NCBI GenBank assembly: GCA_017470525.1
Contig: JAFUYM010000023.1
Coordinates: 1 to 50,208 of the forward strand
Direction: 5' to 3'
DNA length: 50,208 nucleotides
Source: Bacteroidaceae bacterium
Lineage (GTDB): Bacteria; Bacteroidota; Bacteroidia; Bacteroidales; Bacteroidaceae
Part shown: positions 25,078 to 43,008 of the stretch, piece after piece
Position numbering within the stretch: the first letter of the stretch is position 1
Layout of the letters: the number at the start of each line of letters is the position of its first letter
Notes under the pieces: model-generated
Seen by the model: the letters and a program-made list of their open reading frames with translations, nothing else
What the model was told of the DNA's origin: nothing
The model's database searches: none
Translations under genes and position numbers: made by a program

Positions 25078-25138
25078 GTACCCCTCGGGTACGATGCAGT
25101 GTACCCCTCGGGTACGGCATGGTGTACCCGAGGGGTAC
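25078..25138. repeat. Palindrome array A (23-bp period)
   Basis: Three 15-bp units: GTACCCCTCGGGTAC (25078-25092 and 25101-25115) and the flipped GTACCCGAGGGGTAC (25124-25138). The spacers are 8 bp each (GATGCAGT, GGCATGGT). Each unit is a palindrome except for its central 3 bp. Units 2 and 3 form a perfect 15-bp stem with an 8-nt loop. It lies between GH2 and nadE, both on the plus strand. Confidence 0.9.
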
Positions 25139-37906: not shown

Positions 37907-38014
37907 GTACCCCTCGGCTACAATTGAGCGTACCCCTCGACTACGATTGATTGTACCCCTCGACTACGATATACAAAAACCCCTCGGCTGCGAATGGACG
38001 TAGCCGAGGGGATA
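37907..38014. repeat. Palindrome array B (five units)
   Basis: Units at 37907, 37930, 37953, 37977 and 38000, each 15 bp: GTACCCCTCGGCTAC, GTACCCCTCGACTAC twice, AAACCCCTCGGCTGC, and the flipped GTAGCCGAGGGGATA. Spacers are 8, 8, 9 and 8 bp. The last two units form a hairpin with CCCCTCGGCT paired to AGCCGAGGGG. It lies 26 bp beyond the kdsD stop. Confidence 0.88.
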
Positions 38015-42947: not shown

Positions 42948-43008
42948 ATACCCGAGGGGTACGCCGCATCGTACCCCTCGGGTATCATATGGCGTACCCC
43001 TCGGGTAC
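42948..43008. repeat. Palindrome array C, with terminator
   Basis: Units ATACCCGAGGGGTAC (42948-42962), GTACCCCTCGGGTAT (42971-42985) and GTACCCCTCGGGTAC (42994-43008), separated by 8-bp spacers GCCGCATC and CATATGGC. Units 1 and 2 are exact inverted complements including the A/T end bases. The last unit is followed by GCTTTTTTG, so it can end transcription of the plus-strand gene; the array lies between convergent genes. Confidence 0.9.

Follow-up and report, generated by a model that had tools for sequence, protein, structure and literature searches.

The usual account of REP-like repeats invokes a dedicated RAYT together with a GTAG foot. In REPINs, an inverted pair of REPs folds into a longer hairpin, consisting of the two REPs with a longer loop. 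The BOX elements of Streptococcus pneumoniae are modular intergenic repeats with three distinct module types, of which the middle one varies in number. According to the available parts of two studies, REP/BIME elements and GTAG- or CGTC-tagged palindromes form species-specific, regularly spaced clusters of mixed orientation downstream of genes (PMC3733652, PMC2817692). The same extracts give REP dimer spacers as mostly 20 to 100 bp, with a few of 1-2 bp (PMC3733652), and place the rayt gene between two copies of the repeat in inverted orientation (PMC2817692). The BrickBuilt MITE of Porphyromonas gingivalis is intergenic and carries 23-nt repeats in variable number, with 19 in one genome; its elements span 84-991 nt and have a leader and tail of up to ~300 nt and IS5-type 12-bp terminal repeats (PMC4596501, available part).

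We analyzed a stretch of 50,208 nt from a Bacteroidaceae bacterium (hereafter the window) together with related genomes, in which 15-bp palindromes recur in short, regularly stepped arrays. Like BOX elements, these arrays are modular intergenic repeats that vary in number, but BOX elements have three module types, and both sequence and host are unrelated; with REPINs they share an inverted pair of palindromes, but they have three units, and their inner spacers are unpaired. Their spacers are 8 bp, as opposed to ~30 bp in CRISPR arrays. In so far as the available parts of the sources describe them, REP/BIME elements are similar in being abundant, short extragenic palindromes, clustered in mixed orientation between tandem or convergent ORFs, and differ from the 15-bp units and the fixed 21/23-bp step found here. 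RAYT-linked REPs, within the same limits, differ further: here GTAC lies within the stem with no unpaired GTAG (CGTC) foot, and the arrays do not flank RAYT genes. The arrays share with BrickBuilt a Bacteroidales host, a 23-nt period, a variable repeat number and an intergenic location, but consist of spaced palindromes rather than spacer-less direct repeats and have no BrickBuilt ends (PMC4596501, available part). A search of the open-access literature found, among the papers listed, no description of this array geometry, and the available parts of two surveys with REP content (PMC12306157, PMC8040213) contain nothing of this geometry.

Arrays in the window and across the genus

The initial annotation had reported three arrays of near-palindromic units in the window. 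The units, coordinates and 8-bp spacers of the first and third arrays were correct on re-reading, and the observation of palindrome arrays is confirmed. The features are as follows:

25078..25138, array 1: three units, ++-, with 8-bp spacers GATGCAGT and GGCATGGT
25078..25092, plus strand: array 1 unit GTACCCCTCGGGTAC
25101..25115, plus strand: array 1 unit GTACCCCTCGGGTAC
25124..25138, minus strand: array 1 unit, inverted
37907..38014, array 2: five units, ++++-, with steps of 23, 23, 24 and 23 bp
42948..43008, array 3: three units, -++
42948..42962, minus strand: array 3 unit ATACCCGAGGGGTAC, inverted, one change
42971..42985, plus strand: array 3 unit GTACCCCTCGGGTAT, one change
42994..43008, plus strand: array 3 unit GTACCCCTCGGGTAC

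Array 2 had been described as having the same design; its five units and 23-bp steps bear this out in part, but one 24-bp step corresponds to a 9-bp spacer and units 4 and 5 are degenerate. Inversion of one terminal unit, proposed as a rule, applies to all three window arrays but is only a tendency elsewhere: the outer two units are oppositely oriented in 87 of 118 three-unit arrays (27 of 35 in the source genome and 60 of 83 in others). All three arrays lie within ~30 bp of a stop codon, as first noted. Array 1 occupies a tandem junction, the stop of a GH2 glycosidase gene lying 27 bp before it and the start of a NAD synthase gene 48 bp after it. A minus-strand SIS/CBS-domain gene has its stop 25 bp from array 2. 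Array 3 sits between convergent genes whose stops are 9 and 25 bp away; its flanks are A-rich and T-rich, and it is terminator-like on both strands. Allowing two mismatches to the unit, the window yielded 14 matches, 11 of them array units, with 3.55 expected. At the gathering score, Rfam gave no match in the window, and a plasmid search with array 1 and its flanks returned none.

The source genome (G000; 3.24 Mb in 83 contigs, 83% complete) contains 102 exact units of the consensus GTACCCCTCG(RS)TAC, and the reversed pattern none. With at most one mismatch there are 127 units, as compared with two for a control. Array structure was read at 40 loci of this genome, namely the window and 39 stretches, among the matches listed (100 of the 127). 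These loci hold 42 arrays or single units: 36 with three units, three with four, one with five and two single units. The step is 23 bp in 83 of 85 cases. Thus the proposed search of the full genome and its relatives for units with 8-bp gaps found many further places, with the spacing kept.

The GTAC unit, GTACCCCTCG-RS-TAC, is 15 bp long. Its first ten bases are 94-100% conserved among 127 units, and positions 11-12 are GG, AC or GC. The arms are unequal, GTACCCC being strict (94-100%) and the other arm lax at two positions. As a hairpin, the unit has six pairs and a 3-base CTC loop; AC or GC at positions 11-12 disrupts pairing and is uncompensated. Folding of 20 sampled arrays per family gave mean z values of -6.8 to -8.2. 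Spacers are diverse (68 distinct among 83) and follow the pattern R-V-Y-R-Y-R-B-Y, with CA/TG at positions 3-4 in 152 of 264 and at positions 5-6 in 168 of 264.

A long RNA hairpin in which the first unit would pair with the third and the first spacer with the second was rejected as a maintained structure, as spacer pairing is below expectation (0.419 vs 0.456 across 118 arrays). Base-pair covariation was detected neither between nor within spacers, and pairing within spacers is depleted (z -4.2 and -3.6; with G-U, -5.0 and -5.4). The depleted self-complementarity and the lack of covariation together indicate that selection does not act to maintain a long conserved RNA hairpin. Pairing between the first and third units slightly exceeds that of shuffles (0.854 vs 0.834, z 2.4), and there is weak covariation in the outer 5 bp (0.544 vs 0.497, matched by 6 of 5,000 shuffles). 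A hairpin extending past the 15-mer was likewise rejected: pairing at flank positions -1/+1 and -2/+2 is below expectation.

Of the 45 genomes of the genus, 16 carry exact GTAC units, at 1 to 127 each. A stricter pattern, comprising a unit and the start of the next, was found in nine of 301 genomes of the family, all among the 21 of the source genus; the 280 genomes of other genera had none. Among the matches listed (80 of at least 100 loci), the carriers are MAGs under the names Prevotellaceae, Bacteroidaceae or Bacteroidales, and the titles of several point to ruminants. One contig titled Treponema (L106) starts with a GTAC array, has flanks homologous to a G008 locus and is perhaps mis-binned.

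In a NadE tree covering 30 of the 45 genomes, the carriers included form part of one 25-row clade. Sisters in this tree differ abruptly in exact units (102 in G000 vs eight in G006; 127 in G007 vs 36 in G043). Three carriers of GTAC or TTC units outside the tree (G004, G016 and G028) have NadE only 72-76% identical to that of the source genome and so probably fall outside the clade, which would make the distribution patchier than the tree shows. The GTAC carriers G016 and G028 are unusually distant from the source genome, at 85% and 84% in TrpB and 76% and 72% in NadE, respectively; exchange of the TrpB and NadE genes, or of the arrays, is possible.

Gene ends and further array families

Gene context was assigned with a home-made, simple codon-model gene caller. 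The 134 distinct arrays comprise 41 in convergent, 67 in tandem and seven in divergent junctions, 17 at contig edges and two inside a predicted gene. They lie a median of 25.5 bp from the nearest stop. Baseline junctions of at least 100 bp at the same loci (n = 340) divide into 220 tandem, 71 divergent and 49 convergent. Divergent junctions are therefore avoided (7/115 arrays vs 71/340) and convergent junctions enriched (41/115 vs 49/340).

One array site lies between genes that we take to be trpB and trpE, from recognition and from their Pfam domains (PALP; anthranilate synthase component I and the chorismate-binding domain). Eleven of 30 genomes have an array here. GTAC arrays are present in four (G000, G007, G041 and G043). 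G011 alone has a ACCGACGT-N5-ACGTCGGT array, and the remaining six have TTCATAASTTATGAA arrays (G008, G012, G031, G034, G044 and, reduced to a single unit, G010). TTC units were found in eight of the 45 genomes and a wider ACC pattern in 15, the source genome included. Among the matches listed, the ACC loops vary with the species: GCCCC in G011, CGGGG in G007 and G012, and mostly CGWCG in G010. At 67 ACC and TTC loci, of which L363 gave no array, the step is 23 bp in 51 of 51 ACC cases and 21 bp in 128 of 132 TTC cases (122 of 125 with locus L342 counted once). Spacers across the families are 8, 6 or 2 bp long. The arrays share no flank signal beyond ~6-8 bp; where a MITE would have terminal repeats, they show only short outer signatures, which read outward are RNTTT in the GTAC family, together with CRACTT (TTC) and a TTTGRGG-like sequence (ACC).

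A de novo scan for periodic palindromes (periods 16-60) covered 1.80 Mb of fetched, partly overlapping loci. It returned 61 arrays with at least three matching units, all with a period of 21 or 23 bp, and none in a locally shuffled control. The arrays comprise 40 GTAC, nine ACC, nine TTC and three others; the three main families dominate because the loci were chosen for them, and one of the three arrays outside (L186) resembles TTC. Two-unit matches outside the three families have many periods, from 17 to 60.

Several further repeats were noted. At L236:3526 and L087:6210, 23-bp arrays have GTGGTCTGAGTCAGACCAC-like units between AAAAGTGGT and ACCACTTTT ends. At L186:3091 and L176:30, 21-bp arrays of TTCATCGACGATGAA-like units have TTC-like spacers and flank and another centre, as if centres had been exchanged. 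Intergenic-looking pairs of CCCTCCCCC..GGGGGAGGG-like palindromes lie 40-54 bp apart at L225:3843, L239:13750, L241:1156, L124:256 and L166:739.

GTAC arrays and ACC or TTC arrays coincide at 13 of 16 junctions, compared with six of 21 other 3' junctions (Fisher p 0.0025), in numbers that are small and pairs not all independent. With a control gap of at least 40 bp, the control is five of 12 and p is 0.05. The test required the near surroundings of the GTAC array to map into an ACC or TTC locus. It omitted 25 of the 42 homologous pairs, in which the GTAC array is >500 bp from any aligned segment, as well as the trpB-trpE pairs, where the effect was first seen, and L349-L101, which are from the same genome. 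One junction holds all three families (GTAC in L071, ACC in L361 and TTC in L373). At a G012 TTC site, L385 (G010:C11, ~45.9-46.4 kb) has GGAATTGATCAATTC-like palindromes ~21 bp apart, judged by eye, and other repeats. In G030, an array lies 3' of nadE, and tandem CTAGGATTTCTAGG repeats were seen upstream of nadE in G017 (L313:3526).

Changes within arrays inherited in place

Sixty-two pairs of arrays have at least 250 bp of alignable surroundings, and 46 of these are comparable three-unit pairs below 98% identity, several sharing a locus and thus not independent. In these 46 pairs, ungapped identity is 93.9% in unit arms, 94.2% in centres and 73.8% in spacers, then falls to 66.7%, 51.3% and 45.0% at 1-5, 6-15 and 16-25 bp into the flanks; decayed arrays are under-sampled in this comparison because loci were found by the intact-unit pattern. 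The alignments show arrays inherited in place, with units far better conserved than flanks.

Differences within the units take a particular form. Eight of 138 orthologous centres differ, and the 24 mismatches are eight complete CTC/GAG swaps. Similarly, TTC copies of G012 show no non-central difference at 74 and flips of 0, 1 or 4 of four centres. Arrays also differ in unit number by exact periods. Three alignable TTC pairs have whole-period differences of 63, 42 and 21 bp: four units in G012 as compared with one in G010, four as compared with two between the same genomes at a second site, and four units in G034 as compared with three in G031. GTAC arrays differ by 23 bp, as in L112 and L229. 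One array, in the same place in five contigs (L229:868, L227:2191, L112, L123 and L156), has three or four units, and all five contigs share the spacer GATGTGCC, which reads GGCACATC on the opposite strand in L112.

Near-identical 78-bp TTC arrays are dispersed in G012, with flank identity mostly 0.2-0.6; L334, L336 and L337 have flanks alike up to 0.95 and may be assembly repeats. The sole identical pair of GTAC arrays in the source genome (L056/L069) also shares its flanks, at 100% over 1,461 bp, which leaves TTC as the one family with demonstrated recent dispersal. The search for a precise empty site was negative: the junctions upstream of nadE and between trpB and trpE, in 30 of 45 genomes each, gave no placeable boundary, the flanks of empty junctions being too diverged. 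For arrays 2 and 3, 14 stretches of relatives, their positions guessed by synteny, were without homology.

Overall, these data add to the initial observation further palindrome-array families in the genus with 21- and 23-bp periods, exact-period changes in unit number, complete centre inversions and shared junctions.

Interpretation of the arrays

We favour, at a probability of roughly 0.55, the reading that these are dispersed, non-coding, BIME/REP-like arrays, able to form hairpins of a 6-bp stem and 3-base loop and held at gene 3' ends. The units would extrude as hairpins in single-stranded DNA, which would lead to inversion of the centres, and to gain or loss of whole periods by slippage or recombination. 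A putative hairpin-acting enzyme may seed new copies. At a transcript 3' end, the hairpins would end or protect the RNA, a use that would keep arrays at convergent and tandem gene ends. A role of the arrays as terminators or at mRNA ends would be in keeping with their location, the T-tails at convergent ends and the scoring of array 3 as a two-way terminator, but less so with arrays 1 and 2, which did not score, with the lack of a directional T-tail at tandem ends, or with the arrays inside the presumed trp operon.

The main rival, which we regard as doubtful, is that the arrays are binding sites for a sequence-specific nucleoid or chromosome-organizing protein, with a dimer on each palindrome, about two helical turns apart, and each family having its own protein. 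A DNA-binding protein would explain the spacer pattern better: RVYRYRBY spacers that are constrained without base-pair covariation would fit recognition at the DNA level. Binding on one DNA face, as suggested in the initial annotation, may apply, although a 23-bp step is a non-integer number of helical turns. The strictness of one unit arm with the other lax at two positions, the exact period and the retention of arrays while flanks diverge also argue for a protein. The copy number, more than 100 in one genome and 0-8 exact units in relatives, is harder to reconcile with this model, as is the clustering at gene ends. Moreover, the centre inversions suggest hairpin extrusion, and no candidate protein was found.

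Simple bidirectional intrinsic terminators, alike through shared ancestry, are an unlikely explanation. They would account for arrays placed after stops, for the folding z values and for T-tails (at least five of six), which follow 26 of 82 convergent ends as compared with 12 of 67 and 10 of 67 tandem ends. At tandem junctions, however, the downstream T-tail is no stronger than the upstream one. A terminator scan ranked array 3 as the first three of 26 terminator-like matches but gave no such match for arrays 1 and 2, so only one of the three window arrays is terminator-like. The lax-arm mismatches (GACTAC) are uncompensated, and a strong terminator between trpB and trpE would cut a presumed operon. 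Finally, terminators need neither an exact period nor near-identical units genome-wide.

Mobility driven by a RAYT (Y1) transposase, as in classical REP/BIME elements, is improbable; the initial annotation had drawn this link from the GTAC or GTAG base of the unit. Each of the 16 carriers of exact GTAC units has RAYT-like matches, but such matches occur in 37 of the 45 genomes, often as several genes, so the co-occurrence says little. The unit itself does not support the link: its GTAC is base-paired within the stem, an unpaired GTAG foot is absent and the base adjoining the 15-mer is constrained only to R or Y. Nor were RAYT genes flanked by GTAC arrays, a pattern that the initial annotation had proposed to look for: none of 41 RAYT-like loci had a GTAC array in flanks of ~2 kb (less at contig ends), and where larger stretches were taken the nearest was 3,084 bp away. 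G008 and G044 carry 16 and 21 TTC units, respectively, and have no RAYT match (G008 is 80% complete). In favour of such a link, a TTC array lies ~340 bp upstream of a RAYT-like ORF (L258:3269, G012:C32) and an ACC unit, at a contig edge, ~180 bp upstream of another (L254:3-23, G011:C36). A divergent, long RAYT-like family (~326-444 aa; L040:1027-2007 and relatives) was also seen, its 326-aa copy in the source genome falling below the NCBIfam cut-off.

A mini-CRISPR or attC-like cassette array, suggested by palindromic repeats with variable spacers of equal length, is implausible: the spacers measure 8, 6 or 2 bp and follow a constrained pattern, the short arrays number in the tens, and the viral contigs searched had no match to the arrays.

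The 21/23-bp ruler common to unlike sequences suggests a single process of the host, guided by geometry more than by sequence. We tentatively extend this to a class of arrays in which shared host machinery may recognize hairpin geometry and periodicity rather than sequence, and several palindrome families succeed one another at the same 3' ends; as part of this proposal, the machinery would build, flip, trim and re-seed arrays at gene 3' ends. What these genomes contain is a multi-family system of Prevotella-like bacteria that lacks RAYT and GTAG-foot signatures, keeps its exact spacing through sequence turnover and revisits the same gene ends. The common ruler and the turnover at the same sites are its surprising part. 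The arrays constitute a natural record of palindrome-centre inversion and offer a case for testing whether a protein, hairpin-driven DNA copying or a use at transcript ends sets the array geometry.
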